34,115 bases of DNA from Pseudomonadota bacterium (GTDB taxonomy: Bacteria; Pseudomonadota; Gammaproteobacteria; Acidiferrobacterales; Acidiferrobacteraceae): contig JAJYRD010000042.1 of NCBI GenBank assembly GCA_021794275.1, positions 1 to 34,115 on the forward strand, read 5' to 3'. Position numbers and translations under genes: made by a program. This document shows, piece by piece, positions 4,582-22,862 of this stretch. Positions within the stretch are counted from its first letter, which is position 1; every line of letters begins with the position of its first letter. Under the pieces are notes generated by a model. That model saw only the letters and a list, made by a program, of their open reading frames with translations, did not search any database and was not told the origin of the DNA.

Positions 4582-4598
4582 TTCCGACAGACAAAAAG

Positions 4599-4657: not shown

Positions 4658-5038
4658 ATGACTGAAATAATAGCAGAAAATCCCCAGAACACAAGCCCGT
4701 CACTCGCCGAGCGACTTGCCGCGATGCGGGCCGATCTGGATAAACAATGGATCGGCGGTCATGAACCCATTTTTTCGGCGGGGGAGCGCGCCACCATGAA
4801 AAATTGGAGCCTCCAAAAGCGCCTGAACGTCGCCATCAAGAATCTTAAGAAGCGCAAAATACCAGCTGTCAGGACGGCGGCCGCGCCTCGAGTAGCCCAT
4901 CGAGGTGCCCGCGCCCGCCGGTCTCCAGCCTCCCAGCGCCGGGCGACCACCGATTCCGGCGGGGACCCAGAACCAGAACCTCCCCGACGATCGCCTTATA
5001 ATAGTCTCCCCGCGCGGCGTGACGGGGGTGCCGCATGA
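4658..5038 (+). CDS. Hypothetical protein upstream of the primase
   Basis: A 126-aa protein. The N-terminal half (SLAERLAAMRADLDKQW, then SLQKRLNVAIKNLKKRKI) appears helical. The second half is Arg/Pro/Ala-rich and low in complexity, suggesting a disordered basic tail. The stop overlaps the primase start by four bases (ATGA), so the two are coupled and the product may assist replication. No family was recognised. Confidence 0.55.
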   Translation: MTEIIAENPQNTSPSLAERLAAMRADLDKQWIGGHEPIFSAGERATMKNWSLQKRLNVAIKNLKKRKIPAVRTAAAPRVAHRGARARRSPASQRRATTDSGGDPEPEPPRRSPYNSLPARRDGGAA

Positions 5039-8000: not shown

Positions 8001-8379
8001 TGCCAGCCGGTCCGGGCAAGCCCTCGATGCTCGCAAGGCCATCGCGGGTGCCATGAGCGCCGGACAGCGCACCATCAACTCGATCCGGGCCTGGGTAGAG
8101 ATCCGATTCAAGATCCGCGTCGGGATCGATCGCGTGCGGAGTGTCATGCGCAGCCTGGAAGAAGCGGCGCGCTCCAGCGGGGACGACATCGAGGCCATCT
8201 ATCAGCAAGTTGCGAAACGCGCAGATAGCTACCTGCACGGCGCACGTGGCGACCTGGACGCCGCCATGGCCGCTGCGGTGGCCACCCAGGACTGGACGGT
8301 CGCCGAACTCCTAGACATCCCCACCCAACAGGCACAGGCGACACGACCTCCCGCCGTGGGCGGGCCCGGCGCGGCCTAA
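5035..8379 (+). CDS. Primase-helicase fusion (zinc ribbon, Toprim-like, SF helicase)
   Basis: An 1114-aa protein. Residues 26-54 carry a CHC2-like zinc site (C26-x2-H29 ... C50-x3-C54) with HDDHSPSL, as in DnaG-type primases of mobile elements. Residues about 222-300 look like a Toprim domain: CEGQ at 226 and IAGDSGAPGEKAA near 273. A Walker A motif (TTGTGKTT) lies near 415-423, and QAIGRARG near 940 fits helicase motif VI. The protein would prime and unwind the element's own replication. It is much longer than the usual phage-type primase-helicase; the region between Walker A and motif VI has unrecognised insertions. It is the last gene of its operon and is followed by two terminators. Confidence 0.82.
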   Translation: MSAPLENLLSRLDKVRRSGGEWQALCPAHDDHSPSLGIKETNDGTVMIKCRAGCETRDVLAAVGLDFSDLYPEHLRKGKKGAPIDPGAAARIEAAKAGRRKARNKELSSRVEDARNAWNAAQPITENGYLAGRGVLDAAIAAGARLLPDSYKASWNPDAGARAACVLWPMRDPRSGDLVGVQREWGRGHKNKKMIGRHMVPVDPTSPDVLHSAYLRFPGVRDTLYICEGQVSAAAVATATGSRTIALFDTSGISKPPRQVIERAIRDGAIRIVIAGDSGAPGEKAALECVHTIQTWGLQVKIIWTVPPEKIDWADILERDGQEAVRAALLAGERSIPAPEKKPTASVWSIQAWRPAAVPVLPAATVPVTDARVVIKTGVQMMVTDYIGWLAELDKRREEKKKGRLPSAKPWLFKPTTGTGKTTEIKDLIRNAALLGAGGSVLALVPDHAQADAYQADGWWHYHGRNSDPSNPGYCPNHQAMMEAVEAHHIPQAEFCHRCPNGLKWAGKPENLADLAHMGYVGEKLAKLEKCVWQQHLRDTLEQPFVVAPSGSYSETLASWAPDGLESDTPLRHRLVTVDERMQAAMPVTVGLPDIDLWAKRTADTLRALGAIQHKVEEVNKVTGASNVQAIQEEAADRVQRIEAAKAALALFQILASEMGRLVGQEGRIQVAPGLLDAVQKMLDTDDEDVAAWERLEFNRNGSLQMTPLRAAWAIRQTLKYQDGHVKEGKLHISGVRPLVERIGKRPIAFFDATPDSIIADAVRDHDGHIVQALAAQHVKIIRKATRFWGQKALGKRATPEQHARACRYYQALRKLHPNEVLLVSKKARAILDPDGEDELLGHWGADHRAHDRWAGRSIVIIGSFFPPMDFWREQYQAARVAALTASADPTHWPEWPDSMKMETGAWISEGTHEVQSRLPLPYDPQIRRWLLEMITAETVQAIGRARGANLDPANPVTITIYGGVPLHGLGKHGLTVDSYQADDDPLLGASRSGQALDARKAIAGAMSAGQRTINSIRAWVEIRFKIRVGIDRVRSVMRSLEEAARSSGDDIEAIYQQVAKRADSYLHGARGDLDAAMAAAVATQDWTVAELLDIPTQQAQATRPPAVGGPGAA

Positions 8380-8995: not shown

Positions 8996-9009
8996 ATCAT
9001 TCTCCTTGT

Positions 9010-10017
9010 TCATTGCGGGACTTGCAGACAAGTTTCTTCTGCAGGGCAAGAGTGAGCGGCCTTGATCATCCCCGTTCCAGAAAAGCGCACCGTGGGCCAC
9101 CGCCCCGGCGTGTGGCGATGATATGTGAGGAATTGGTTGGTAATGAGCTTGTGTTCCAGAAGTGCCCCACCCAGCGCCACGGCACCCCCAGCCGATGCCG
9201 CGAGCAGCAAGGCAAAGCTGGCTGACACCCAGGACCTCGCGATCGACCTGCGCAGCGCGGTCCGCGCCTGCCGCTCCACAGCGGAAGCCACCTGCGCCTT
9301 CCACTGTTCCACGAACGCTTCTGCGCGGTTCTCGGCCATCATATCTAACCCCGCTGCCGCCTTTTTGAGCGCATCCGCGCCATGCCCGCTGGCGGCCAGG
9401 ATGACGTTTGTCAGGTTGGCCCCGGCCTCGTCCGCTTTGGCCTTGATCCCTGCCTCTAAAACGGCCTTGAGATCGGCTCCGGCGCTGGTGACGTTTTTGT
9501 AAAGCACGTCGGGGATCTTGGCGGCCTCATCGAGGGTGACGCGTGCGCCCACCGCCGCCGTGGTTGCCGACCACGCCAGCGCGACCATGGCCCACGTTGG
9601 GTCGTTGGGGTCCACGATGTTGTGATCGAGGGCCATCTTTAAAACGCCCTCGCGGGCCGTATTGGGAATGGCATTTAGAACCTCTTCGCGTAAATTCATT
9701 TCAATACCTCTAGGGCTAGAGAGAGGCCGGGGCGGTTTGACCGTGGCTTGCGGTTTCTCGGGTGATGGGGTGCTGCACGCGCAGGTCGCGGCGGCGGCCT
9801 CGATCACGTTTTTAATCGCGTCCGTCAGGGCGCGCCGGTCAGGAAAAACATCACTATAGAGTTCGCCGGAAAACCCTAGGTTTGCCAGTTTGTAAGCTGC
9901 GGTTGGGTCGACCTCGGTCCTGTGGCGGAGCCCACAGGAGGGGCAAGTAGCCAGTGTCTTAGCCTTGATGGCGATAGCGCGCGCCAGTTCTGTTTGCTCA
10001 GTCGTTTGCTCAGTCAT
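9010..10017 (-). CDS. StbC-like position: protein with CxxC motif and one C-terminal TM helix
   Basis: A 335-aa protein from ATG 10017, preceded by GGAGAAAAG. The N-terminal part has CPSCG and CAC cysteines that could bind metal. The middle (MNLREEVLNAIP ... TWAMVALAWSATTAAVG) is helical and Ala-rich. Near the C-terminus SFALLLAASAGGAVALGGAL is a clear transmembrane segment. A second in-frame ATG near 9699 with AGAGG upstream could give a shorter product lacking the cysteines. The order after the ATPase gene matches StbC of R388 or TraM of RP4 by position only. Sequence similarity to either cannot be judged here. Confidence 0.6.
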   Translation of the reverse strand: MTEQTTEQTELARAIAIKAKTLATCPSCGLRHRTEVDPTAAYKLANLGFSGELYSDVFPDRRALTDAIKNVIEAAAATCACSTPSPEKPQATVKPPRPLSSPRGIEMNLREEVLNAIPNTAREGVLKMALDHNIVDPNDPTWAMVALAWSATTAAVGARVTLDEAAKIPDVLYKNVTSAGADLKAVLEAGIKAKADEAGANLTNVILAASGHGADALKKAAAGLDMMAENRAEAFVEQWKAQVASAVERQARTALRRSIARSWVSASFALLLAASAGGAVALGGALLEHKLITNQFLTYHRHTPGRWPTVRFSGTGMIKAAHSCPAEETCLQVPQ

Positions 10018-10069
10018 GCTCTTTTCTCCAAGAAAAGCCGGGGCACCATGCCCCGGCATCGTGTTGGTA

Positions 10070-10786
10070 CTACTGCGGGACGCCCAGCGTGACCACCGAG
10101 TGCGCGGCACTCAACCAGCGGAACAGCAATGCACGGTCCGCGATTTTGAGGGGCGAGTCTTTGGCGATCAGTGGGGAGTACCCGCCCGGCATGTCACGGA
10201 TCTGCTGATCCAACAGCGGCGGCTTAAAGAGCGGCATGACGCCTTCCTTGCCGCCCTCACTCAAGAACGCCTCGCGGGCCTTGGAGCTAGCCCAATGAAA
10301 GCCCTTGGCGGGCCCACTGATCTCACTCATGACCACGATGCGGCGGTCGGCAGGGACCGCGGACAGGAGACCGCGCTCGGCCGAGTCAACGAGATTCTTG
10401 GTGTGAATGTCGAGCGGCCCGACACTGTAAAAAACCGTCATGTCCTGCCCGAGCAGGCCCAAGGAATCGGCCAGCAACCCGGCAAATTGGTCTAAGGTGT
10501 TCGAGGCCTGCCCAGGCAAATTGATAACCACATCCTTGCCTGCCGCGTGTTCTTCGAGCCATCCCCCCAGGGTGGAGAAAACCTCTTCCATGGCATCGGG
10601 TCGGTTCAGGTTGATAAACCCCGTCTCGATCTGGTCACCGTACCGTTTGCCGACGTCGGCCCCGCTCTTGTCGCCCTCGACAATCACGACCGGGCGGCCC
10701 TGCTTCTGCAGAAGATCCACAAGGACCATCGCAAGACGGGATTTACCGACCCCGCCCTTTTCACCATGTGACACGTAAACTGTCAT
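10070..10786 (-). CDS. ParA/MinD-like ATPase (StbB/TraL-like)
   Basis: A 238-aa protein from ATG 10786 with GGAGATAC upstream; a longer frame from 10840 has no ribosome-binding site. The deviant Walker A KGGVGKS with signature Lys10 and catalytic Lys15 marks the ParA/MinD/SIMIBI group. VVIVEGDKSGAD (about 37-48) is the A' motif and DVVINLPGQ (near 89) is the Walker B strand. In R388 StbB, and in RP4 TraL, such an ATPase is encoded beside oriT and affects plasmid placement and transfer. It follows the small DNA-binding-type gene and precedes a membrane protein, the same order as stbABC. It could place the excised element at the cell pole or the channel. Confidence 0.8.
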   Translation of the reverse strand: MTVYVSHGEKGGVGKSRLAMVLVDLLQKQGRPVVIVEGDKSGADVGKRYGDQIETGFINLNRPDAMEEVFSTLGGWLEEHAAGKDVVINLPGQASNTLDQFAGLLADSLGLLGQDMTVFYSVGPLDIHTKNLVDSAERGLLSAVPADRRIVVMSEISGPAKGFHWASSKAREAFLSEGGKEGVMPLFKPPLLDQQIRDMPGGYSPLIAKDSPLKIADRALLFRWLSAAHSVVTLGVPQ

Positions 10787-10850
10787 GTCCGTATCTCCGT
10801 TTGTTGTGGCGGCCAGCGCCGCCATTGTCTTTAGCTGCACGCGTGGAAAT

Positions 10851-11224
10851 TCACTCGATCCATTTGTGGTCGTCCGCGGCCTCCTTTTTTGGTGGGACCG
10901 CGGGCGTTCTAAACCCCGAGACCGGGTCTATCCCCGCTGCGGCCCCCAACGCCTTGGTGGCCGGGGATGAGCGCGTGGGGGTGGGCGTCGGGGTCGCGGC
11001 AGGGGGTTCTAGCCGCCCCGCTTCGACCTCGGCCAGGGTCCAGAGATAGAGCTTTCTCAATGAATCGGGGTTGACCCCCATGGCCCCCGCGATCCGGTGC
11101 CAGGGGCATTTTTGAAGGCGCAGAGCCTGGATCATTTTGAAATCCGCGAGGACACGCCCCGCGAGGTTCTTTTCCCGTAGCTCCCCGCGCCATTCCCCGG
11201 CAAGTTTCTGAAGTCCGTCTTCCA
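10851..11224 (-). CDS. StbA/TraK-like small oriT-proximal protein
   Basis: A 124-aa protein from ATG 11224, which has GGAGGG upstream and is preceded by the shared leader motif (11268-11287). The frame extends further upstream but without a start signal. Residues 38-75 (LQKCPWHRIAGAMGVNPDSLRKLYLW) look like a helix-turn-helix; the C-terminal half is Pro/Thr/Ala-rich. It faces away from the relaxase across the repeat-rich region, the place held by stbA in R388 and traK in RP4, whose products bind direct repeats there. It is therefore the first candidate to bind the TTCAGA repeats at 11330-11497. Confidence 0.65.
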
Positions 11225-11267
11225 TTGATGTCCCTCCGATGGGCCGCCCGATGTGGCCCTTCGCTAT

Positions 11268-11287
11268 TAGCTGTCGGCGCGGAAATT
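11268..11287 (-). promoter_or_regulatory. Leader motif AATTTCC-N7-CAGCTA, copy before the StbA-like gene
   Basis: On the minus strand AATTTCC, seven bases and CAGCTAATAG stand 43 bases before ATG 11224. A small stem, GGGCC/GGCCC (11241-11259), lies between the motif and the ribosome-binding site. The same motif occurs at four other gene starts in the element. Confidence 0.7.
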
Positions 11288-11329
11288 CCCCGGACTCCGC
11301 CCGGATCGAATCCGGACGGCCCGTGAACG

Positions 11330-11545
11330 ATTTCAGACGCTTTTCAGACAAGGCGGCACGGAAGCGGCACAAATTCAGATTGTGTGAACGATTTCAGACG
11401 GGCGGGAATGAATCCGGCACGGAAGCGGACGGATTTCAGACATTTATGCGGACGGATTTCAGACCTCTAGCGGCACGCTGGCGGCACAAATTCAGAGTAT
11501 GCGGCACGGAAGCGGCACGCTGGCGGCACGGAAGCGGCGCTTTTC
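11330..11545. repeat. Direct-repeat array (TTCAGA-type and GCGGCAC-type) next to oriT
   Basis: ATTTCAGAC occurs exactly at 11330, 11391, 11433 and 11456, with variants TTTTCAGAC at 11341 and AATTCAGA at 11372 and 11489. Interleaved are several copies of GCGGCACGGAAGCGGC (11353, 11501 and 11523, with a near copy at 11416). Short repeats of this sort beside oriT are the binding sites of StbA in R388. The array may also control the divergent promoters. Confidence 0.8.
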
Positions 11546-11574
11546 CGGCACTGGCCGGCAAGCGAGGTTAGGCG

Positions 11575-11711
11575 CCCACCCCGTGGGGGTGGGCTAGAGA
11601 GATCACACATCCGCACCAGCGCTTCGCGCTTGTGGGCCGTGTCCCTCCGGGGCCTCGAAAATCGGCCCCTTCGGTCCACGGGGTGCGGATGATGGCCCGC
11701 GCCAGCGGGCC
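11575..11711. other. oriT: Candidate origin of transfer (oriT)
   Basis: The region lies between the divergent StbA-like and relaxase genes and is packed with hairpins. CCCACCCC/GGGGTGGG has a 3-nt loop (about 11577-11595). CATCCGCACC (11608-11617) pairs perfectly with GGTGCGGATG (11682-11691). Inside are AGCGC/GCGCT and GGGGCC/GGCCCC, and GGCCCGC/GCGGGCC follows (11693-11711). MOBF relaxases recognise a hairpin next to the nick. No exact match to a known nic site was found, so the nick position is not assigned. The 210 bp from 11712 to 11920 hold no evident gene. Confidence 0.6.
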
Positions 11712-11921
11712 TCTCCCCGTTGCCGTAGGCGCGATGGTGGCCGGGCATCGCTGCGCTCATTGCAGGCCGAATGGCGTGGGCACGGGCTTTGGCGGGGCCG
11801 GATGGGTCTCCCGCGGCTGGCGCCGCCACCCGTCCGCTTCGCGGAGCTGGGGCCGGGGATGGGGCGGGTTCACCCCCCTACGGGGTGCCACCCGCTCCCC
11901 GGCCTTGGGTCGCCAGGGGGG

Positions 11922-11941
11922 AATTTCCACGGGTGCAGCTA
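11922..11941 (+). promoter_or_regulatory. Leader motif AATTTCC-N7-CAGCTA, copy before the relaxase
   Basis: AATTTCC (11922-11928) and CAGCTA (11936-11941) stand 30 bases before the relaxase ATG. GGGGAG (11944-11949) and CTCCCC (11965-11970) can pair and enclose the weak ribosome-binding site in the loop. Confidence 0.7.
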
Positions 11942-11971
11942 AAGGGGAGTCCATATATAGGAATCTCCCCA

Positions 11972-14848
11972 ATGCTTCGCATCCACCACCTGAAATCCTC
12001 GCGGTCCTCTGCCAGCATCGCCGACTATTTTGAGCACAAGAAACGCGAGGCTGAGGCCGCGCGGTCCGCGGGGTACTACCAGGCCAAGGCGGCCCCCAGC
12101 CAGTGGCTCGGCCAAGGCGCCGCGACCCTGGGCCTGCAAGGGGAGGTCGGTAGGGAACAGCTCGTCGAGTTGTTGGAAGGCCGTCTCCCAGACGGCACCG
12201 ACCTATCCACACGTGGAGGCAAAGCCGCCAGCGCCAGGCGCGGGACGGACCTGACCCTGAGCGCCAGCAAGTCCTACTCGATCATGGCCCAGGCCGACCC
12301 CCGCCTAGTCGCCCTCTGGGATGAAAGCGTCAAGGTCGCCGCCGCTGTATTGGAAAAAGAGTGCGCCACCTCCCGGCACGGGCACGGCGGGGTCGAGGTC
12401 GAGCGCACGGGGAATTTGGTGATCGCCTCCTTTCGCCACGAGGACACGCGGACGGTCGAGGGGGTCGCGGACATGGATCTGCATAACCATCTCCTGGCCT
12501 GCAACATGACCCAACGCGCGGACGGCACCTGGGTGCGACTCGACCTCGATTTTGGTCGCCAGATGGAGTTGGCCAAGCTGGCGGATTTCGCCCAAAAAGC
12601 CTTTCTCGCCAAGGGCGCTCAAGCACTCGGGTATGAGATTCGGCAGACCAAAGACGGCTGGGAGTTCTCTGCCGTCCCCCAAGAAGCCATCGACGATTTC
12701 TCCCGCCGCTCTGCGCAAATTGACGCCCATCTAAAAGCCCAGGGCCTCGACCCCGAGACCGCGACGGACGCGCAGAAGGAGGCCGCCTGCCTCGCCACCC
12801 GCGGCGGCAAAGCGCAGGCCGGGCAGGATGAGCAACGCTGGGAGTGGCGGTCCCGCATTCGGGAAGCAGGTCTCGACCTGGACGCCATCGTGGCCGAAGC
12901 CCGTGCCCGCGGCCCCATCGAGGCCCCGGATCTGACCGAAGCGGCAATCAAAAGCGCCGCCCGCCACCTGGGCGAACGTGAAAGCGTGTTCGGGAAAAAC
13001 GCGACGCGCCTTGAGGCTTTGAAAGCGGGCATGGGCGGCACCACCATAAACGCAATCGACGCTTCCATAACAGCCGATGGCGCCGTCATCGACGTTGGTG
13101 GAAACAAGCTCATCACCAAGGCGGCCTTGGTCGCCGAGGCGCGCATCCTCAAGATCGGACGTGCGGGGCATGGTGTATCCCAGGCACTTATGACCCCCGA
13201 GGCCGCCGAGTCCTTTATATCTCAGCGCGAGGCCTCCCAAGGTTTTCAGTTTTCCCCAGGCCAGCGTGAGGCCCTGGCGCTGGGCCTGACCTGCGCCGAT
13301 CAAACGTTCGGTATCCAGGGCGCGGCGGGCGTGGGCAAAACCACTTCCATGAAACCTTTAATATTCGCAATGCGCGACGGCGGATATGAGGTCATCGGCT
13401 TGGCCCCAACCACCGACGCCACGACCGCCCTGGTCGGCGCGGGCGCGGATGACACGCGGACCATGCAGAGCTTCCTGGCCTCCCCGGTCCCCAAAGACCC
13501 CAACACCCCGCGCTTCATCATTCTGGACGAGGCGGGGAAGGTCTCAACCAACGACATGACCCGCCTTCAAACCAAGCTCGCTGCGATGCCGGGCGCGCGC
13601 CTCCTGGTGACTGGCGACTACCACCAGACGCCCTCGGTTGAGGCGGGCGCGCCTTTCAAAGCTTTGATCGAGTCGGGGGCGATCCGGTCTGTCAAAATCC
13701 GTGAGGTCCAGCGCCAAAAGGACCACGCCCTGCTGTCCATGGCCCAGTCGTGGGCCGATGGCGATGTGGCCGGGGCGCTCGCCAAAGCCAAAAGTCTTAT
13801 CACCAAAGTGGAAGTACCGTTCGATGAGAAGGCCCGCAAGCGCCCCAACACCGACGAGCGCCGCGCAGCCTTGGCAGCGGCTGGGGCAAAAAATTATCTG
13901 GCCCGCGACCCCGAGCGCCGTGACGCCACCTTGATGATGTCCGGGACAAACGACGTGCGCCGACGGGTCAACACCCTGGTCCGCGACGGGCTCAAAGAGC
14001 GCGGGGTGATCACCGGCGGGGAAGTGACTATCCGCGCCCTGGACCAAAAGGACATCACCAAGGAGGCCGCCACCCGCCCCGACTCCTACCAGCCGGGCGA
14101 GGTCGTGCGCCTCACTGAGGGCCGGGGCCGCCAACGGGCCACCATCGACTACCGCGTGGCCCGGGTAGAAGGGCGGCACGTCATTCTCGCCAACGATGCA
14201 GGGGAGGAAAAACGCTGGCAGCCCCACAAGGCGCGCGAGGGCAGCTTTGTCATTTTCACAGAACGCCAAATGAAGTTAGCGGTCGGTGACGCGGTGCAGA
14301 TCCGCGCCAACACGGGCAACAAACGCGATCCAGACTTTCTGGGAAACGGCCAAACAGGAAAGGTCGTGGCCTTGGACAAGGACGGGCCGCGCCTGCGCCT
14401 GGCCGATGGGCGGGAGGTGGTGCTGTCCGACCAGGCCCGCCACTGCCTGGACTACGGTTGGTGCCGGACAGTCAGCAAGGCACAGGGGTCAGAAAAAATG
14501 GGCGCGATCCTGTTGGACGAGGCCTCTCAGGGGTCGTCGGCAGAACTGGCAAATGTCGGCCTGACGCGGGGCATACAGGATGTAGAGATCCTTTCCGACA
14601 ACCCCGACCGGACCCTGAGAGGTTGGTCCTCTTGGGCCGACCGCGAGCAGGCCAGCGAGGCCACGCGGCGCCTGGGTGACATGGACCCCCAGCGCCTGGA
14701 CACCCTCCGTGCCGAGATCCGCGCCGAGTTGGAACGCGAGCCCGGGGCCGACATGGGCCTAGGCCGCGCCGGCGACCTCGCGCGCGCCCGTGAACAGCGC
14801 CCCTTAGAGATCGAGCAAGCCCGCCAAGAAATGGAGATGGACCGATGA
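11972..14848 (+). CDS. MOBF (TrwC-type) conjugative relaxase-helicase
   Basis: A 958-aa protein. It opens with MLRIHHLKSSRSSASIADYF, with candidate catalytic tyrosines in ADYF and GYYQ near residues 19 and 35. The metal-binding histidines are in MDLHNHLL near 167-174, after the FRHEDTR strand, as in TrwC/TraI. The C-terminal half is a RecD/Pif1-type helicase: GAAGVGKTTS (~450), ILDEAGKVS (~516), TGDYHQTPS (~547) and DYGWCRTVSKAQGSE (~827-841). It would nick oriT, stay bound to the 5' end and unwind the strand for transfer. The frame runs upstream to 11771, but through the non-coding leader; the family N-terminus fixes ATG 11972. It overlaps the next gene by four bases. Confidence 0.95.
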   Translation: MLRIHHLKSSRSSASIADYFEHKKREAEAARSAGYYQAKAAPSQWLGQGAATLGLQGEVGREQLVELLEGRLPDGTDLSTRGGKAASARRGTDLTLSASKSYSIMAQADPRLVALWDESVKVAAAVLEKECATSRHGHGGVEVERTGNLVIASFRHEDTRTVEGVADMDLHNHLLACNMTQRADGTWVRLDLDFGRQMELAKLADFAQKAFLAKGAQALGYEIRQTKDGWEFSAVPQEAIDDFSRRSAQIDAHLKAQGLDPETATDAQKEAACLATRGGKAQAGQDEQRWEWRSRIREAGLDLDAIVAEARARGPIEAPDLTEAAIKSAARHLGERESVFGKNATRLEALKAGMGGTTINAIDASITADGAVIDVGGNKLITKAALVAEARILKIGRAGHGVSQALMTPEAAESFISQREASQGFQFSPGQREALALGLTCADQTFGIQGAAGVGKTTSMKPLIFAMRDGGYEVIGLAPTTDATTALVGAGADDTRTMQSFLASPVPKDPNTPRFIILDEAGKVSTNDMTRLQTKLAAMPGARLLVTGDYHQTPSVEAGAPFKALIESGAIRSVKIREVQRQKDHALLSMAQSWADGDVAGALAKAKSLITKVEVPFDEKARKRPNTDERRAALAAAGAKNYLARDPERRDATLMMSGTNDVRRRVNTLVRDGLKERGVITGGEVTIRALDQKDITKEAATRPDSYQPGEVVRLTEGRGRQRATIDYRVARVEGRHVILANDAGEEKRWQPHKAREGSFVIFTERQMKLAVGDAVQIRANTGNKRDPDFLGNGQTGKVVALDKDGPRLRLADGREVVLSDQARHCLDYGWCRTVSKAQGSEKMGAILLDEASQGSSAELANVGLTRGIQDVEILSDNPDRTLRGWSSWADREQASEATRRLGDMDPQRLDTLRAEIRAELEREPGADMGLGRAGDLARAREQRPLEIEQARQEMEMDR

Positions 14849-15390
14849 TCTTTTCCCCTCGTACCAGAGACCGTATCCGCTGTTGGTTCCTCCCGCGTTC
14901 CCATCGCCGTCGCATCCGATCGGCCCGGCGCGTCCTGCGCAAGATCCGCCCATGGCTCCTGGAGCCCAACGGCCCCGCGCGGGTCTTCGGGTATCTCAGA
15001 AAGATCGACGCCCTGGCCTTTGAAGAACTCACCCTGCAAGCGTTCGTGGACATGGGCTGGCATGTGAAGCGCGGTACCCGCTACTCAGGCGATGGCGGGA
15101 TCGACGGCCACACGCGGCCCCCCGGCCACCCCTATTGGTGTCCCATTCAGTGCAAGCGGTACCGGAACTCGATTGACCCTACCCACGTCGCGGACTTCGC
15201 GCACCTGATCTATCCCCACCTCGGCTTTTTCATCCACACCGGCCGCACGGGCGCGGCCTCCTGGGATGCGCGGCGGGGATCAGGCGTGGTGGTTGTGAGT
15301 GGGGAAAAACTGGTGGCGTTGATCGATGGCCGCTTCGAATTTCCACGGGCGCAGCTAAGAGGGCAGGGCCGCATCGGGCGGCCCTTCTAA
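14845..15390 (+). CDS. Mrr-like PD-(D/E)XK nuclease-fold protein
   Basis: A 181-aa protein. After a very basic N-terminus (SHRRRIRSARRVLRKIR, residues 19-35), residues 60-120 show the Mrr_cat pattern: FEELTLQAFVDMGW, SGDGGIDG with Asp87, and PIQCKRY with Gln102 and Lys104. These are the metal and catalytic residues of the restriction-endonuclease fold. Mrr-type proteins cut modified or foreign DNA. Here ATGA overlap with the relaxase points to a transfer-linked job, such as processing transferred DNA or defending the element, rather than chromosomal restriction. That is an inference. The 3' end of the gene contains the next copy of the leader motif. Confidence 0.82.
   Translation: MIFSPRTRDRIRCWFLPRSHRRRIRSARRVLRKIRPWLLEPNGPARVFGYLRKIDALAFEELTLQAFVDMGWHVKRGTRYSGDGGIDGHTRPPGHPYWCPIQCKRYRNSIDPTHVADFAHLIYPHLGFFIHTGRTGAASWDARRGSGVVVVSGEKLVALIDGRFEFPRAQLRGQGRIGRPF
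15338..15357 (+). promoter_or_regulatory. Leader motif copy inside the end of the Mrr-like gene
   Basis: AATTTCC (15338-15344) and CAGCTA (15352-15357) lie within the last codons of the upstream gene, 45 bases before ATG 15403. They are followed by a perfect stem AGGGCCGC/GCGGCCCT (15365-15385) and then CTAAGGAG. A conserved non-coding motif inside a coding end points to a DNA or RNA signal. Confidence 0.7.
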
Positions 15391-15402
15391 GGAGTGCTCA
15401 CC

Positions 15403-16098
15403 ATGAACAAGCTTGGAATTGCAATTTTGGCCCTGGCCCCGGCTGTCGCCCTGGCCCACAACGCCCCCGGCACCCTGCGCCTCGGGGTATCTCAAATGCA
15501 CGTGGCGATGGGGGCCGGCGCGGCCGCCAACATGCCCGGCCTACGCCTGGGCGTGGGTGGGGTGTACCACGGGGTCGGCATCCGTGCGGGAGTGTCGTAT
15601 GCCCGCGGTGCGGGCGCGTCCCTGGAAAACCTTGGGGTCCGCGCGACGGCCAACCCACGGGCAGCCCTGAGCCCCTACGCGAGCGCGGGGGTGATCGACC
15701 TGGCCTCCCTGTCCGGGGCGACCAGCACGGCCACCACCTACCAGGTGAATAGTGGCGGGCTTATCACCCCGATCACCACCGCCACCAACCTACCCCCGCG
15801 CGGGGTAGTAATGGGAGTTGGTTTCGTGGGCCTGCGCGCACGTCTCGACCTCAACCCCCACTGGTCCGTGTCCGCGCATGCGGGTATCGGGGCCGGTATC
15901 GGGGGTTCGGTGACGGGCCTCCCTGCCACCACCGGTAGCCACAGCCCGTTCGCCACCGACCTGGGGATGGGGATTCGTTACCGGGTAACACCCCACGCGA
16001 TCGCGGTCCTGACCTACAGCCGCCTCGCGGTTCCGGTCCGAGGCGTGACCTTCAAAAGCGAAGGGGTCGCTCTGACCGTGGCGCGGACCTTCCAGTAA
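15403..16098 (+). CDS. Outer-membrane beta-barrel-type protein
   Basis: A 231-aa protein with a signal peptide (MNKLGIAILALAPAVALA, cut before HNAPG). The mature part is Gly/Val-rich with alternating residues typical of amphipathic strands (LRLGVGGVYHGVGIRAGVSY, VVMGVGFVGLRARLDL, AHAGIGAGIGG, GIRYRV, LTYSRL) and ends in VARTFQ; near-C-terminal Phe is usual for barrel proteins. Start at ATG 15403, eight bases after AAGGAG; a GTG at 15394 overlaps that signal. It sits in the transfer block with a lipoprotein gene. A surface role such as entry exclusion or mating contact is possible. No specific family was recognised. Confidence 0.7.
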   Translation: MNKLGIAILALAPAVALAHNAPGTLRLGVSQMHVAMGAGAAANMPGLRLGVGGVYHGVGIRAGVSYARGAGASLENLGVRATANPRAALSPYASAGVIDLASLSGATSTATTYQVNSGGLITPITTATNLPPRGVVMGVGFVGLRARLDLNPHWSVSAHAGIGAGIGGSVTGLPATTGSHSPFATDLGMGIRYRVTPHAIAVLTYSRLAVPVRGVTFKSEGVALTVARTFQ

Positions 16099-16106
16099 AG
16101 CAGAAC

Positions 16107-16129
16107 GGCCACCCCACCACGGGGTGGCC
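16107..16129 (+). promoter_or_regulatory. Strong hairpin before the lipoprotein gene
   Basis: GGCCACCCC and GGGGTGGCC form a perfect 9-bp stem with loop ACCAC, followed by TCCCTATATAAGGAG. It lacks a T tract, so it is more likely a leader or mRNA-stability hairpin than a terminator. It resembles the hairpin-TATAAGGAG arrangement of the other leaders here, but without the AATTTCC motif. Confidence 0.55.
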
Positions 16130-16151
16130 TCCCTATATAAGGAGATTACCA

Positions 16152-16613
16152 ATGAACATGAAGCATCGAGTTATTACTACGGCTCTGGTCGCCTCCCTGA
16201 CCGGCTGCGCCATGCCCCCGCAAAACGCGAACGTGTACGCGGGCTCGTCCTCCATGCAGGCCCGCCAGGTGGCTTTAGGTCAAGTGATCGCCGTCCGCCC
16301 CATTCAGATCCGTGCCGGATCACAGGACGGCCAGACCGGCGCCGAAGTCGGCGGCCTGGGCGGGGGCGGGATTGGCGCGGCGCTTGGTAACACCCGCGGC
16401 GCGATCATCGGGGCCCTGGCGGGGATCGGCCTCGGAGCCTTTGTCGGCAGCCAACAGACACGCCCCGGCGATCTTGTGACCGTGAGATTCATCACGGGCC
16501 AGATCCGCGCGTTCGCCCAGCCCCTGGCCGCCAAAGAACAGCAGTTCACGGTCGGGGAGCGCGTCGAGGTGGTGATCGGTCGCCACGACCGCGTTATCCC
16601 ACTACACAGCTAA
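16152..16613 (+). CDS. Glycine-zipper outer-membrane lipoprotein (SlyB-like)
   Basis: A 153-aa protein with a lipoprotein signal: a basic start (MKHR), a hydrophobic core and the lipobox LTGC, giving Cys19 as the lipidated residue. A glycine zipper covers about 66-102 (GGLGGGGIGAALGNTRGAIIG, then ALAGIGLGAFVG), the 17 kDa/SlyB-type two-helix domain. A small beta domain follows (GDLVTVRFITGQ ... VGERVEVVIG). Such proteins sit in the outer-membrane inner leaflet and stabilise the envelope. In a transfer locus it may replace a T4SS lipoprotein or protect the envelope during mating; this is inferred. Confidence 0.85.
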   Translation: MNMKHRVITTALVASLTGCAMPPQNANVYAGSSSMQARQVALGQVIAVRPIQIRAGSQDGQTGAEVGGLGGGGIGAALGNTRGAIIGALAGIGLGAFVGSQQTRPGDLVTVRFITGQIRAFAQPLAAKEQQFTVGERVEVVIGRHDRVIPLHS

Positions 16614-16624
16614 AAGGAGGCCTT

Positions 16625-16777
16625 ATGACGACCATTCGAAAAAAACGCGGTCCGCGTGGCGAACATCCGAGCCCCTACCCAGGCGCTACTCGCTGGAACG
16701 ACCGACGCCGCCAATGGGGCGCGGTCTCGGGGGGCCGAACCATCAACAACCGGACGTTGCTGCCCCGTCGCAAATGA
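16625..16777 (+). CDS. Small basic protein (50 aa)
   Basis: A 50-aa frame starting at ATG 16625, preceded by a strong Shine-Dalgarno (AAAAGGAGGCCTT). It starts 11 bp after the lipoprotein stop and ends at a TGA that touches the next leader motif. The product is rich in Arg and Lys (MTTIRKKRGPRGEH, then WNDRRRQW). A small DNA- or RNA-binding role is possible. The start signal and exact fit between neighbours support a real gene; no family was recognised. Confidence 0.55.
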   Translation: MTTIRKKRGPRGEHPSPYPGATRWNDRRRQWGAVSGGRTINNRTLLPRRK

Positions 16778-16796
16778 ATTTCCGCCGAAGCAGCTA
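16777..16796 (+). promoter_or_regulatory. Leader motif copy before the coupling-protein operon
   Basis: AATTTCC (16777-16783) and CAGCTA (16791-16796), then ATAG. A stem GGGGCC/GGCCCC (16804-16821) and TTATAAGGAG lead to ATG 16841. It marks the likely start of the 16841-19646 operon. Confidence 0.7.
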
Positions 16797-16840
16797 ATAG
16801 CACGGGGCCAATCCCGGCCCCTTATAAGGAGTGAAGAACA

Positions 16841-17074
16841 ATGAGTGAAATATCCGATGCCGTTTTTGCGCGCGCCTTCGATGCTGTTCTGTTCGAAGGG
16901 AAAGCTAAACCTGATCTGACTACCGAGATCATGGCCTCCCTGCGGGGGCTTCGCCACCCGCGCGGCGTGGAGGCGGTGCTGCTTGACTCTCACCTGTCCG
17001 GTGGAGAGGTGTGGGGCCGTCCTCACCTGGACCGCTTGAGGGACAAATACCTCAACAAGGAGACTGAAAAATGA
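16841..17074 (+). CDS. Hypothetical protein
   Basis: A 77-aa protein with AAGGAG upstream, beginning MSEISDAVFARAFDAVLFEG. It appears soluble and mostly helical, with no signal peptide or recognised motif. The stop overlaps the next start (ATGA), so it is coupled to the following gene. It is first in the operon that ends with the coupling protein, so a transfer accessory role is likely only by context. Confidence 0.6.
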   Translation: MSEISDAVFARAFDAVLFEGKAKPDLTTEIMASLRGLRHPRGVEAVLLDSHLSGGEVWGRPHLDRLRDKYLNKETEK

Positions 17075-17301
17075 CTGAGGCCGAGCTGGAAAAAATGGAG
17101 GGGGTCGTGTTTGCCGCGATCCCCCCAGGAGAAGTCCATCTGATTCTTTCAGAGTGGTCTGGCAATAACTACCAGCGCCTGATCGAGGCCTTGTTCCTCT
17201 ACCTGAATCTCAAGGAGGTCAAAAAGGCTACGCGATGTGGTGTCACCACGGCGGATGAAATGATGCTGATCCGCGCGTGCGGCACCTACACCCTGCAATA
17301 A
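17071..17301 (+). CDS. Hypothetical protein
   Basis: A 76-aa protein, translationally coupled to the preceding gene by a four-base overlap, with GGAG in the upstream coding end. It begins MTEAELEKMEGVVFAAIPPGE. The middle (YQRLIEALFLYLNLKEV) is a helical, partly hydrophobic stretch, but not a convincing membrane segment. No family was recognised. Confidence 0.6.
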   Translation: MTEAELEKMEGVVFAAIPPGEVHLILSEWSGNNYQRLIEALFLYLNLKEVKKATRCGVTTADEMMLIRACGTYTLQ

Positions 17302-17313
17302 GGAGATTGACCC

Positions 17314-17985
17314 ATGAACGAACTTGACCAAGCCAAACTGGAAGCCTGGCGCCTCGCTGAGCAGCGCCGCATCGACCAACGCCGCGCCGACGACCTGGAC
17401 GCGGCCGACCAACGCCGCGCAGACGACTGGGCCCGCGCTGAATTGCGCCACCGGGACGCCATGCGCCTCGCGGACATGCGCGCGAGCGACGACCCCGCCA
17501 CCCGCGAAATCGGGGAGAAGGTGCAAAGGGTAATGGACTCCCGCGACCGGCAGGAGGCGCGGGACCAGGATCTGACGGGGCGCGGTGCCCCCATCCGCGG
17601 CCCCCACGGGCAAGAACTGCCTGACCCGCATATGGACCCCGGCTGGCTCGCCCGCTGGGAGCGGGAAGGGACCTTGACCCAGCTCACGCCCGCCGAGCGG
17701 GAAAAACTTCGGGAGATCGACCGCCAGGACCCTATGGGCCGTTCACAGCGTGAGGCCTTTCTCCCCCGCGAGGTGCTGGGCATCCGGGCCAACAGCGACC
17801 GCCAGATGGCGGCCTTCCGGGAGGAACGCGACATTGCCGGCCGCATGGCCGGGGCGGCCCAGGTCCAGGTGGAGGAACGCCCCCACAGGGTTGTCCAGGC
17901 ACAGGAGCCTACCAAGTCCGAACCTAAGGCCCCCGCGGCGCAACACACGCAGGACCAGGACGAAGACGAAGAGCTGGAAATGTAA
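17314..17985 (+). CDS. Charged coiled-coil protein upstream of the coupling protein
   Basis: A 223-aa highly charged protein starting 12 bp after the previous stop, with AAGGAG upstream. Residues 1-70 are a long Ala/Arg/Asp/Glu helix with an imperfect repeat (RRIDQRRADDLDAADQRRAD), suitable for a coiled coil. The centre has GRGAPIRGPHGQELPDPHMDPGW. The tail is disordered and ends with an acidic run (DQDEDEELEM). It has no membrane segment. Acidic disordered tails occur in proteins that dock to coupling ATPases, so it may be an adaptor or relaxosome accessory. That is inference. Confidence 0.6.
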   Translation: MNELDQAKLEAWRLAEQRRIDQRRADDLDAADQRRADDWARAELRHRDAMRLADMRASDDPATREIGEKVQRVMDSRDRQEARDQDLTGRGAPIRGPHGQELPDPHMDPGWLARWEREGTLTQLTPAEREKLREIDRQDPMGRSQREAFLPREVLGIRANSDRQMAAFREERDIAGRMAGAAQVQVEERPHRVVQAQEPTKSEPKAPAAQHTQDQDEDEELEM

Positions 17986-18011
17986 TCACTCACAAGCAAA
18001 AGGAGAACACC

Positions 18012-19646
18012 ATGGAACACTTCGACATTCACAAGGCCGTCGCGAAACACAATCGTGAGGTATCAGGGGGCAAGCCCCCGTGGCTTCTATACTGGCAATT
18101 GGCAGGGGCCGCGCTCGTGGCGATCCTGGCCGCGTTCGGTTTCGGCATCGCGGGGCTCTGGAACCTCGCGCGCCACCGCGCGCCACGGGGCACTCTGGCA
18201 TTCTACACCCCAGCCCAGCCGGCGATGGCCGCGTTGTTTTTCCTCCTCGCGATCGGCTCGGGTCTTGGCGCCTGGTGGCTGATCCAGCACATGAAGGCGT
18301 GGGGTGCGCGGCTCATCGACATCGATGGCGGCCGTGAGGACGAGGTCCACCAGAAGGGCACAAAAATCCTGCACGTTCGCGACGCAGCCTACCACCTCCC
18401 CACCCCCCAGGGGGCTCTCACGATCGCGGGCATCCCGCTACCCGCGAGCGTGGAGCAGCAACATATCCTCCTGGCCGGCGCGCCGGGGTCTGGCAAATCT
18501 GAAGCCCTCAAAACCCTGGTCGCCCAGGTCCGTGCCCGCGGGTCCGATGGGGCTGTGATCCACGACCCCACGGGAGAAATGGTCGCGCTTTTCTATGACC
18601 CCAAGCGCGGGGATCTCATCATCAACCCCTTGGACGCGCGCCATGCGCCCTGGGATCTTTGGTCGGACCTACAGCCCGGAGAGGAGGCGAATCTCGCAAA
18701 AGCGATCATCCCCAGCGCCACAGGCGACAACAAGTATTTCAGCGACGCGGCACAGGCGTTGCTAGAAGTACTGTTCCAGCAGACCCACACGGTCGACGAC
18801 CTTGTGAAGGCCGGTTTGGGAGAGTCCGCACAGGAGCTTGTGGAACGGTTGGAGCGCGCGGGCATGGGCGGCCTCGCGGGCAATGTCAAAACCTTTGGCA
18901 GCGTCCGTGGCAACCTCGCGCCCTACCTGCGCAGCCTGGCGCTTCTCCCCCCGGTCCCTCCGGGGCTGGGGATCAACCTCGCGGAGTTTTGCGAGAAGCC
19001 AAAGGGCCGGTTCATATTTTTGCTGACCCGCCGGCGGACCAAGGACGCGCTGCGGCCTTTGCATCAGCTCTTCTTGACTCAGGTGGTGAGCACCGCGACC
19101 AGCCTGCGCCCCGATCCTACGCGCCGCATCTGGCTGTTCCTGGACGAGCTGCCGGAGCTGATGCCATCGGACGCGGTGGCCACGTCACTTTCCCAGGGTC
19201 GCAAGTTCGGACTGTCCTCCGTGCTCGCGGTGCAGGAAGTTGGGCAGATGTACGACCGCGTTGGGCAGTACGAGGCGCGGGCATTGCTGTCCATGCCCAA
19301 AACTCGCCTGATCCTCCGGGTCGGCGACGGAGAATCCGCTGAGGCCATGTCCAAGGAGGTCGGGGACAGGCAAATCCAGCGAAAGGTGGTCTCACTAAAG
19401 CAGAACGAGGTCATGAAGAGCGAGCAGAACGTGGCCTCGACCACCTGGCAGACCACGACCGAGCGCGCCGTCTTGCCTGCTGAAATCATGGCCCTCCCAG
19501 ACCTTAACGGATACCTGAGGATCGAGGCTTCCACGATGCGGGTCACGCTGCGCTACACCCCGCGTACGACGGTTGCAGAGGACTACAAGCCGGTCCCGCC
19601 GCGCCCGCTGCCAGTCGCAGAGAAAAAGGAGGCGGAAGAGAAGTAA
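18012..19646 (+). CDS. Type IV coupling protein (TrwB/TraD/VirD4 family)
   Basis: A 544-aa protein. Two N-terminal membrane helices (about 24-50 and 70-95) precede the cytosolic motor. Walker A is GAPGSGKSE near 156-164. VIHDPTGEMVALFY (about 178-191) is the family strand, and IWLFLDELPEL near 372-382 is Walker B. QEVGQMYDRVG and ALLSMPKTRLILRVGD follow, as in TrwB. Couplers bring the relaxase-DNA complex to the type IV channel and pump DNA with ATP. It is the last gene of its operon. No VirB-type genes follow, so the channel must come from elsewhere or lie outside the window. Confidence 0.93.
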   Translation: MEHFDIHKAVAKHNREVSGGKPPWLLYWQLAGAALVAILAAFGFGIAGLWNLARHRAPRGTLAFYTPAQPAMAALFFLLAIGSGLGAWWLIQHMKAWGARLIDIDGGREDEVHQKGTKILHVRDAAYHLPTPQGALTIAGIPLPASVEQQHILLAGAPGSGKSEALKTLVAQVRARGSDGAVIHDPTGEMVALFYDPKRGDLIINPLDARHAPWDLWSDLQPGEEANLAKAIIPSATGDNKYFSDAAQALLEVLFQQTHTVDDLVKAGLGESAQELVERLERAGMGGLAGNVKTFGSVRGNLAPYLRSLALLPPVPPGLGINLAEFCEKPKGRFIFLLTRRRTKDALRPLHQLFLTQVVSTATSLRPDPTRRIWLFLDELPELMPSDAVATSLSQGRKFGLSSVLAVQEVGQMYDRVGQYEARALLSMPKTRLILRVGDGESAEAMSKEVGDRQIQRKVVSLKQNEVMKSEQNVASTTWQTTTERAVLPAEIMALPDLNGYLRIEASTMRVTLRYTPRTTVAEDYKPVPPRPLPVAEKKEAEEK

Positions 19647-19669
19647 GGCTATAAATGGCGCCGCTTAAT

Positions 19670-19693
19670 GCCCCTCGCATGGGGGCCTTTTTT
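19670..19693 (+). terminator. Rho-independent terminator after the coupling protein
   Basis: GCCCC and GGGGC around TCGCAT, followed by six T residues. It ends the 16841-19646 operon and lies just before the next leader motif. Confidence 0.75.
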
Positions 19694-19699
19694 ATGGGC

Positions 19700-19719
19700 A
19701 ATTTCCGCCGCCGCAGCTA
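19700..19719 (+). promoter_or_regulatory. Leader motif copy before 19752
   Basis: AATTTCC (19700-19706) and CAGCTA (19714-19719), followed by TAGACAG. It follows directly on a terminator and stands 32 bases before ATG 19752, so it must mark a new transcription or leader start. No GC hairpin follows this copy. Confidence 0.7.
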
Positions 19720-19751
19720 TAGACAGACACACTTAAGTAGGAGACAAAATC

Positions 19752-20009
19752 ATGGAAAGCGAAAGCATCTGGAAAAACGCGGCATGGGAAGTTCTAGAAA
19801 CAATTCGCGCAGACGGGCGGCGGCAAGTCGGTAGAAGACCCTCGGCAAAGCAGATAAAGGCGGTTCTAGCTGACACTGAGACGCTGAAAGTGGTCTTGAC
19901 CCGAGAAAATCCGGACACAGCAAATATGCTGTTTGACGAAAACGGATATCTGGCGCGGACCGGCGCGGGCGTCATTGCGACCGCGACTTTACTGATACAG
20001 GGAGATTAA
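19752..20009 (+). CDS. Hypothetical protein
   Basis: An 85-aa protein from ATG 19752 with TAGGAG upstream. It begins MESESIWKNAAWEVLETIRA and contains a basic patch (GRRQVGRRPSAKQIK). It is probably helical. It pairs with the small membrane protein that starts one base after its stop. Its own leader motif suggests control together with the transfer genes. No family was recognised. Confidence 0.6.
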   Translation: MESESIWKNAAWEVLETIRADGRRQVGRRPSAKQIKAVLADTETLKVVLTRENPDTANMLFDENGYLARTGAGVIATATLLIQGD

Positions 20010-20010
20010 A

Positions 20011-20172
20011 ATGGTCGCGCTCGTTTTTAGCGTCGTTGCGTTTCTGACGTTTCTGGTTCTGCTGTCATATGGCCCCGCCGCCGCGTTTGCCTTTGGCCTT
20101 TTTTTGGGTGGCGTCGCGTTTCTGTTTTGCCTGCCTTGGGTCGTCCTGGGCAACCCGGGCGACCACAAATAA
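20011..20172 (+). CDS. Small membrane protein (53 aa)
   Basis: A 53-aa frame with GGGAGATTAAA before ATG 20011, one base after the preceding stop. Nearly all of it is hydrophobic: residues 2-20 (VALVFSVVAFLTFLVLLSY) and about 25-47 (FAFGLFLGGVAFLF, then LPWVVL) form two membrane helices joined by GPAAA. The polar tail is GDHK. It may act in entry exclusion or assist a channel; such small proteins are common in transfer operons, but nothing specific is shown. Confidence 0.6.
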   Translation: MVALVFSVVAFLTFLVLLSYGPAAAFAFGLFLGGVAFLFCLPWVVLGNPGDHK

Positions 20173-21455: not shown

Positions 21456-22862
21456 TTGATTACGCTTCAGGAGCATCGACCCGGTGGCGTTGAGAATGGG
21501 GTTTCCCCGCGAGATTTTCATGTCCCACTGATTCTTAAAAACGGTGTGCTCTATAACCCCGATCTGGACCGGTTTTTCATGGACTTGCCGTTGAATGGCG
21601 TACGCTCGCCACATTCTTTGCGAGCCTATGGTTACGACATCATGGTCTGGGTGCGGTTTCTGGATGAGGCGCGGGGAACGAACATTTGGAAGGCCGAGCG
21701 AGCGGATGTCATGGCTTTTCAGCGAGCCCGACGGCGTCAAAGTGCGGAAGTAAGTGTGTCGGCGTCATCATGGAATCGCAGTGTGGCCGCGTTCGAGAAG
21801 CTGTACAGATGGGCTGAGGCCGAGGGCCTGATGTCATCCAGCCCCTTCACTCATCGTGACATTTGGATGCGCACCCATGGCACGGGCCGGGCCCGCGCGG
21901 TGGCGCGGAACGACGCCTACGAGCGTGCGGCAAAGCGCTCGGATATTCGCTTTGTTTCGCTTGAGGAGTTTGGTGTGTTCAAGAACGTTGGCCTGCGCAC
22001 CTTGACGCCGAGCGGCACCCCGCGTGTCGGTGCCCGCGACCGTAACGGCACGCGCAACGCACTCTTTGCGGAATTACTGGTCAGCACCGGGCTTCGCTTG
22101 GAGGAGGCCTCGTTTCTGCTGGAATCCGAGCTGCGAGGATTGATGGCGCTGAATTCGAAAGGGAGTCGTCAGGTTCGACTGGAACTATCGCCACCACTCA
22201 CCAAAGGTGATCGCGGGCGCACCGTGCTATTGCCACGCCGCATACTTCAGCAAATCTCCACCTACCTTGCGATCGAGCGGACACATGCGGTTTCCAAATT
22301 CAAGGCGCGATCCGGCTGGCAATCCATGGACCGACCCATATTAATTCGCCGGCCCGCCGCCGGTGCCGTGAGCTTTCCGCTGCTACACGGTGGCGCCCTC
22401 CCGCTCGCGGCCCTGACGCCGGATGAGCGTGGCCGGCTTGTCATTTGTGATGAGGACGGTACGCCCGCCGAGCCCGCTGTATTGTGGGTGACTGAGACGG
22501 GTCAACCCGTTCAGCCCAACTCATGGGAAGTCATTTTCGCGCGCGCCTCGCTTCGCTGTGCCGAAGCGGGTATTCCAATCCGCATTAACCCGCATCGCCT
22601 GCGGCACACCTTTGCGGTGCATATGCTGTCCATGCTGATCCGGCACCGCTTGCGCAACGCCGCGCAGGAGCTGACCGATCCCGGCATTGAGGCATACCGT
22701 CGCCTGCTGGGCGACCCGCTGCAGCAGGTTCAGCGCTTGCTCGGTCATGCCAGCCTGGCGACGACCTACATTTATCTCGACCACATTGTTGCTCAAGCGG
22801 ATACGGTTGATGCTGCTGTAGAAGAGATTCTCGCCCTGGTTTCTGACGTGCGCGCATCATGA
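21456..22862 (+). CDS. ritA: RIT tyrosine recombinase A
   Basis: A 468-aa tyrosine recombinase. An N-terminal SAM-like domain (SPHSLRAYGYDIMVWVRFLDE) is followed by the catalytic domain: TGLRLEEASFLL with Arg box I (~210), HRLRHTFAVHML (~380) with the HxxR motif, LGHASLATTYIYLDH (~430) with the second His and nucleophilic Tyr. All key residues are present, so it may be active. The start is uncertain; TTG 21456 gives the full domain, and a nearby GTG is out of frame. It overlaps recombinase B by four bases (ATGA). In RIT elements all three recombinases are thought to act together. Confidence 0.88.
   Translation: MITLQEHRPGGVENGVSPRDFHVPLILKNGVLYNPDLDRFFMDLPLNGVRSPHSLRAYGYDIMVWVRFLDEARGTNIWKAERADVMAFQRARRRQSAEVSVSASSWNRSVAAFEKLYRWAEAEGLMSSSPFTHRDIWMRTHGTGRARAVARNDAYERAAKRSDIRFVSLEEFGVFKNVGLRTLTPSGTPRVGARDRNGTRNALFAELLVSTGLRLEEASFLLESELRGLMALNSKGSRQVRLELSPPLTKGDRGRTVLLPRRILQQISTYLAIERTHAVSKFKARSGWQSMDRPILIRRPAAGAVSFPLLHGGALPLAALTPDERGRLVICDEDGTPAEPAVLWVTETGQPVQPNSWEVIFARASLRCAEAGIPIRINPHRLRHTFAVHMLSMLIRHRLRNAAQELTDPGIEAYRRLLGDPLQQVQRLLGHASLATTYIYLDHIVAQADTVDAAVEEILALVSDVRAS

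Follow-up and report, generated by a model that had tools for sequence, protein, structure and literature searches.

AATTTCC leader boxes before Stb and transfer genes in MobF elements of one gammaproteobacterial genus: a candidate core of an element-specific promoter

The DNA analysed here, called the window throughout, is the 34,115-nt stretch at positions 1-34,115 of contig JAJYRD010000042.1 (forward strand) of a member of the Acidiferrobacteraceae (GCA_021794275.1; carrier assembly 2.68 Mb, 92.7% complete). It contains a conjugative-type element, in which a minus-strand cluster of StbA-, StbB- and StbC-like genes lies beside genes for a TrwC-type relaxase, an Mrr-like protein, a beta-barrel-like protein, a glycine-zipper protein, several small open reading frames (ORFs) and a TrwB-type coupling protein. 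A short motif, AATTTCC-N7-CAGCTA, recurs in front of these genes, and its heptamer AATTTCC is referred to as the box. The genes concerned are as follows.

9010-10014, minus: StbC-like protein, named by its place and its relatives (profile matches); no Pfam match
10070-10786, minus: StbB-like P-loop ATPase (CbiA/ParA, under the Pfam cut-off); family present in 10/10 fuller elements
10851-11225, minus: StbA-like small protein resembling helix-turn-helix (HTH) proteins, candidate reader of the box; no Pfam match
11972-14848, plus: MobF (TrwC-type) relaxase-helicase (PF08751, 6.4e-60)
14845-15390, plus: Mrr-like protein (PF04471, 5.4e-16)
15403-16098, plus: outer-membrane beta-barrel-like protein (PF13505, 1.3e-4, under the cut-off)
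16841-17074, plus: 77-aa ORF, first of the unit leading to the coupling protein; its L012 ortholog has the same leader motif
18012-19646, plus: TrwB-type coupling protein (PF10412, 6.4e-81)
19752-20009, plus: 85-aa ORF behind the 19700 motif copy, related after iteration to coupling-protein-like ORFs

Six exact copies of the motif were found in the window, each before one of these genes.

10832-10851, minus: AATTTCCACGCGTGCAGCTA, before the StbB-like gene
11268-11287, minus: AATTTCCGCGCCGACAGCTA, before the StbA-like gene
11922-11941, plus: AATTTCCACGGGTGCAGCTA, before the MobF relaxase gene
15338-15357, plus: AATTTCCACGGGCGCAGCTA, before the beta-barrel gene, within the 3' end of the Mrr-like ORF
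16777-16796, plus: AATTTCCGCCGAAGCAGCTA, ahead of the 16841 ORF and of the genes that follow as far as the coupling protein
19700-19719, plus: AATTTCCGCCGCCGCAGCTA, before the 19752 ORF

An earlier reading made from the sequence alone had listed five copies with 13 invariant positions, about 30-46 nt before start codons. All five proved exact at their coordinates, including the one placed inside the coding end of the Mrr-like gene (ORF 14845-15390); the copy at 10832-10851 had been missed. That copy begins at 10851, the base that also completes the StbA-like stop codon, and it leads the StbB-like gene. The 13 positions hold in all six copies, with C at spacer position 2 as a 14th invariant base, and the measured distances from motif end to ATG are 45 nt for StbB (10786), 42 for StbA (11225), 30 for the relaxase (11972), 45 for the barrel (15403), 44 for the 16841 ORF and 32 for the 19752 ORF. 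The heptamer itself occurs 6 times in the window, each time within the motif. Searched with the motif, the carrier assembly gave six exact matches, every one in the window, and none to the backward pattern; an exact search of the rep side of the window (3041-8379) found no copy. When up to 3 mismatches were allowed, 12 window hits were obtained against a shuffle mean of 5.39, so that chance can account for the six inexact hits but not for the six exact ones.

The distribution of the motif was examined in further genomes (labelled G) and in element or contig stretches (labelled L). Among 96 genomes of relatives, carrier included, the 14-base form was present in 4, 3 of them in the carrier's genus; the fourth, G083 (L015, another family of the class), has one exact match, in a stretch where none of the window's proteins was found, and this was taken as chance. 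A stricter form matched only the carrier among 398 genomes drawn from the phylum and had no match in the viral contigs searched. The relaxed form ATTTCC-N-C-N5-C-N-GCTA gave 28 hits in 14 genus genomes, compared with 7 for the backward pattern, and 23 of the 28 lay within MobF elements (G005 11/11, G000 8/10, G006 4/4). The orthologous element of G005 carries six sites, of which two have a single mismatch, all before orthologs of window genes, namely relaxase, StbA, StbB, barrel, 77-aa ORF and coupling protein; the last has its own site there, whereas in the window it lies downstream within the 16841 unit. Relatives of StbB, found at 24 places in 6 of the 14 genus genomes, led to further elements.

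Across these elements three groups can be told apart by the right half of the motif. In the window's group it reads mostly GC-N4-G-C[AC]GCTA; in an element at about 3.00-3.04 Mb of G005 (L107, L147) it reads N9-GATA; and in a distant group, with relaxases about 40% identical, it follows A-NNN-GGGG-N-CACT loosely, with TA soon after. The box is largely constant across the three groups, with one-mismatch forms at some genes. The pattern AATTTCC-N9-GATA was matched 16 times in the 14 genus genomes versus 2 times backward, and at least two right-half types occur in each of G005 and G006. For the more distant MobF relatives, pACMV3 (L061) had no exact AATTTCC in the leader stretches examined, and the Caballeronia stretch (L022) had one two-mismatch motif hit only, away from the relaxase. 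A literature search, mostly of open-access text, returned nothing pointing to the motif, which is weak evidence of novelty; AATTTCC was searched by its letters only together with promoter and conjugative, and the single match to these letters concerns, in the part of that source available, sporulation in C. difficile.

Position relative to genes was counted in 24 element stretches (261,802 bases), an occurrence being scored as leader-like when a ribosome-binding site (RBS) and an ORF of at least 50 codons followed 24-79 nt on in the same direction. AATTTCC was leader-like in 59/73 occurrences (81%), including five hits that look like chance by eye and were kept in the count (L046 17065, L050 10101, L109 15508, L111 3251, L116 4218). 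In the same stretches the opposite-strand word scored 12/73 and permuted words 18.9% pooled (120/210 words, mean 12.2 occurrences each). In 400 kb of the G005 chromosome AATTTCC was leader-like in 3/22 occurrences, and 70 permuted words gave 19.6%. The box is thus not equally common away from gene starts (59/73 leader-like versus 16-19% in the controls).

Element carriers were found in one genus only, and an unchanging left box beside a variable right half might point to a reader encoded by the host; both would suit promoters borrowed by the elements from an alternative sigma factor of the host. Such a factor should have host targets, and for this reason the explanation is disfavoured: in the single-contig G005 genome 11/11 matches to the near-group pattern and 7/7 matches to AATTTCC-N9-GATA (the latter within one 20-kb stretch of the L107/L147-type element) fall in element stretches, and the chromosome sample shows no leader enrichment. 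We consider a borrowed host promoter very improbable.

A near-group alignment comprised 32 sites (31 without one duplicate), picked at up to 2 mismatches to the motif, and the conservation of its motif columns is therefore partly built in; because of this selection, a count taken gene by gene gives a fairer comparison. For that count, gene starts were assigned manually from tblastn and ORF ends, only the best match within 140 nt was scored, and related elements were weighted equally, so that the counts are uncorrected for relatedness. By our own very rough estimate, chance alone would give a one-mismatch box in about 1/5 of leaders and an exact one in about 1/100. Within one mismatch the box was found in 19/21 stbA leaders (11 exact) and 17/20 relaxase leaders (11 exact), so that the box is present before most of the orthologous genes examined in relatives. 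In the 14 elements reached via StbB (L107-L121), independently of the motif, the counts were 12/14 and 10/13. For stbB, 6/6 leaders of the near group had it within one mismatch and 0/15 elsewhere at the proper distance, one-mismatch boxes in L109 and L111 (outside the near group) at 116-122 nt having been left uncounted. The 19/21 include the stbA box of L050, 131 nt from the assumed start; the stbA leader of L107 reads GATTTCC...GATA, matching the type of its own element. Two tandem boxes, 36 bp apart and one with a mismatch, stand before stbA in L046 (11676-11731), the second within a near-perfect inverted repeat. No good box was found at stbA in L109 and L112, nor at the relaxase in L107, L109 and L112.

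The leader module is thus real, conserved and element-specific; an ordinary chance repeat is excluded by the window shuffles, the assembly and genus searches and the leader statistics. Of the two findings that the sequence-only reading had named as refuting it, absence before orthologous genes in relatives and equal frequency away from gene starts, neither was obtained. The further suggestion that it coordinates all transfer genes was too wide: in the window it stands at six Stb or transfer starts, none of StbC, Mrr, the glycine-zipper protein and TrwB has its own copy there, and L109 and L112 lack a good box at stbA and relaxase.

Downstream of the box a TA step recurs at a preferred distance. 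In all six window copies the gap is 11 bases; over the 59 leader-like occurrences, TA was at offset 11 in 27 and at offsets 13 and 14 in 20 and 11, respectively, and the 14 non-leader words showed no TA peak of this kind. The GC fraction falls to 0.14-0.39 at offsets 12-15 within a GC-rich context, and the TA region is often followed by an A- and C-rich stretch up to the RBS, resembling a 5' leader. That the motif does not fit sigma-70 spacing was borne out by the 11-base gap and by a scan of 9000-20100 for TTGACA-N16-18-TATAAT, which found one site (13547-13520, minus; 1.9 expected) and none before these genes. A sigma-28-like -10 (GCCGATAA) was rejected for its spacing, judged against the consensus, as was a promoter of a phage single-subunit RNA polymerase, likewise by consensus and spacing and with no search for such a polymerase made.

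From this arrangement we propose, at about even odds (roughly 0.5), that the motif is the core of an element-specific promoter from which many Stb and transfer transcription units would start; of the possible functions of the leader module, a promoter core is the most likely. AATTTCC would be the upstream recognition box, followed by a spacer rich in GC; the TA that closes the right block would be a -10-like melting point. With the TA set at -12/-11, AATTTCC would span roughly -30 to -24 in the group that includes the window, and transcription would begin a few bases past the TA, giving a short 5' leader with the RBS. An element-encoded activator or adapter would act together with host RNA polymerase. 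We infer the start site, the activator or adapter and its identity, and promoter function itself, from sequence features. Of the three options named in the sequence-only reading, the unusual promoter fits best, an operator is a live rival or partner, and an RNA leader is disfavoured.

In the middle promoters of phage T4 a MotA box lies 12 +/- 1 bp upstream of the -10 element in place of a -35 element (PMC2988021, in the part available). These promoters, which work by MotA/AsiA sigma appropriation, need a good -10 element. The spacing here is similar, with 11-14 bases between the non-sigma-70 box and the TA, and the box would lie near -30. The core of the MotA box is TGCTTtA rather than AATTTCC, the putative -10 here is without a conserved last T, and the carrier is a conjugative-type element; the parallel may illustrate a possible way of working, not membership.

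The RNA-leader option would have transcripts start farther upstream, with AAUUUCC and a stem bound by a protein or small RNA that controls translation. Predicted stems precede the start in five of the six window leaders (-13.8 to -21.6 kcal/mol), as listed with the number of 200 shuffles that folded as well, together with a terminator-like stem.

10807-10824, minus: GC hairpin, StbB leader (leader -15.9 kcal/mol; 1/200)
11237-11263, minus: GC hairpin, StbA leader (-14.4 kcal/mol; 14/200)
11944-11970, plus: hairpin, relaxase leader (-13.8 kcal/mol; 3/200)
15365-15385, plus: GC hairpin, barrel leader (leader -21.6 kcal/mol; 4/200)
16804-16821, plus: GC hairpin, 16841 leader (-14.1 kcal/mol; 13/200)
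19670-19693, plus: terminator-like stem (19670-19686) followed by the T run CTTTTTTATG, ending a few bases short of the 19700 copy

The sequence-only reading had a GC stem after four of its five copies. Of the five stems predicted here, those of StbA and 16841 are only weakly better than shuffles. The 19752 leader is unstructured (0 kcal/mol) and has the terminator-like stem just upstream; between that stem and the ATG there are only about 58 bp, which hold the 19700 copy. In several distant elements a short inverted repeat encloses AATTTCC in its loop. In distant elements, too, the gene of a 750-aa membrane protein (L018 5330-7582 and relatives), which we take to resemble DotA/TraY, has its own AATTTCC leader, with a strong hairpin kept despite changed letters on both arms. 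Pairing of flank and spacer was equalled in 190/500 permutations for 30 near-group sites and in 24/500 for 14 distant sites, the latter mildly better than chance with relatedness left in; a hairpin with AATTTCC in its loop, suggested by the distant elements, was not upheld as a common feature by the near-group permutation. The position of the stem varies between subfamilies, and Rfam gave 0 matches at gathering thresholds in the window, L107, L108 and L047. An RNA leader as the shared function is accordingly improbable. Because the 19752 leader is unstructured, near-group pairing is at the permuted level and no Rfam match was found, the stems near the RBS probably belong to individual genes as secondary features.

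Clearest among these is the relaxase leader, with its RBS inside the stem (TCC-ATATATA-GGA at 11950-11962). A TCC and a GGA around an AT-rich TATATA, in which the TCC, complementary to the Shine-Dalgarno sequence, pairs with it, were seen in 8 of 13 relaxase leaders examined (window, L012, L108, L110, L113, L114, L115 and L118), and this pairing possibly forms an RBS-closing hairpin.

Candidate readers of the box were sought among genes shared by 12 element groups (blastp clustering at 1e-4), of which 10 were fuller and 2 were fragments outside all four shared clusters; at this threshold diverged regulators could be missed. Four clusters were present in 10/10 fuller elements: relaxase, coupling protein, StbA-like and StbB-like, with StbC-like ORFs perhaps merged into the coupling-protein cluster. 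Since these four alone span the fuller elements, the StbA-like protein is their only obvious common DNA-binding regulator and, by distribution only, would be the best candidate reader.

This protein is also central to the operator reading, in which the box would be bound by a co-regulator, most likely StbA-like, over or beside weak promoters, repressing its own unit and the transfer units. Besides the distribution of the protein, the boxes at stbA itself (19/21) and the tandem boxes of L046 agree with this, as does a precedent: on plasmid R388, a 9-bp repeat present in several promoters is bound by StbA, which represses many promoters, its own as well as those of maintenance and transfer genes (PMC3098194, PMC3937220; available portions). 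R388 (IncW, MobF) has stbABC beside the transfer origin and relaxase, with one short word in several promoters, according to the same portions, and the arrangement has its counterpart here in the StbA/B/C-like ORFs beside the TrwC-type relaxase, the Stb names resting on place and mutual relatedness rather than on alignment to R388. The R388 repeat TTGCATCAT, as described there, comes in two sets of five, whereas here mostly a single asymmetric AATTTCC...TA stands at each start; it had no exact hit in the window, and 3 one-mismatch hits where 6.7 were expected. An operator would need neither the fixed direction nor the near-fixed distance to TA, and the StbA-like proteins of elements with an identical AATTTCC vary greatly in their recognition helices. 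The operator is possible, and we hold it only tentatively.

Two further candidates were rejected as general readers. The protein o232 (3310-4008; HTH, basic tail) fell in a cluster found in 6/12 element groups, was not found in the L107 stretch, and occurs also on contigs of G002 and G015 (L124-L126) where AATTTCC is not leader-like by eye. Its AlphaFold model was poor (mean predicted local distance difference test score 61.8), and Foldseek returned nothing at E <= 0.001; its best rows, none of them significant, were mainly sigma factors or chains of sigma region 4. The o232 family is unannotated, small and HTH-like with a basic SRxGR tail, and was detected in 12/92 genomes, five of them weakly; the family proteins scanned gave only weak rows in Pfam, NCBIfam and PHROGs, and two relatives were unmatched in 72,556 plasmids. 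An AlpA-like HTH protein (3041-3316) clustered in the window, L046, L062 and L110, and was found by tblastn in L109, L112 and L126 also; it is missing from some boxed elements.

Several of these results weigh against the promoter reading. The recognition helices of its best candidate reader diverge among elements with identical boxes, and the misfit of o232 leaves no element-encoded reader that fits fully; no MotA- or AsiA-like protein was seen among six proteins scanned against PHROGs. The near-group right block reads TA-W-R-R-G, a poor sigma-70 -10 without a conserved T at -7. The letters of the right half vary by subfamily while the box hardly does, and plain RNA polymerase contact would not explain this. 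Some leaders have an exact box without TA at the expected place (stbA of L108), in L112 neither stbA nor the relaxase has a box, and a motif acting as operator with the real promoters farther upstream may fit too.

A stronger form of the promoter reading, which we consider rather unlikely, would have an element-encoded adapter redirect host RNA polymerase to AATTTCC and the -10-like TA as a private promoter class; the conjugation programme would then be turned on or off as a single regulon, much as phages switch gene classes. If this were true, the divergence of right halves within the same host species (G005, G006) would insulate co-resident elements from one another.

Two other systems bear comparison. 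On NAH7, repeated ParB-parS sites near transfer and partition genes act in transfer-gene transcription (PMC12421886, as far as the available part goes); that is a ParB/parS system, and no ParB family was found among 19 window proteins scanned with Pfam. In the Caulobacter gene transfer agent, GafY with IHF is an element-specific activator helping sigma-70 at promoters with a degenerate -35 element, and in the available part of that report it binds far upstream, at about -123 to -113 (PMC11150451), whereas the box here would abut the core promoter.

Elsewhere in the window, an antitoxin-like ORF (by appearance) is followed by a PIN-domain protein (Pfam) at 298-962, probably a VapBC pair. Three long, overlapping, consecutive ORFs at 21456-26856 resemble a recombinase trio, and a tyrosine integrase lies at the window end (33191-33997); the window contains no tRNA.

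Conjugative plasmids are already known to have shared control words. In the present case a single asymmetric box, at a near-fixed distance from a -10-like TA, marks many Stb and transfer starts in diverse elements of one genus, and its partner half changes by subfamily. In such genomes the box can also serve to locate transfer operons and transfer genes missed by annotation, and because leader-like boxes are not enriched in the host chromosome sample, a clean reporter test is feasible. If it marks a promoter class, it would be a phage-like way for conjugative elements to commandeer host RNA polymerase, and the switching of the conjugation programme as a unit would become directly testable.

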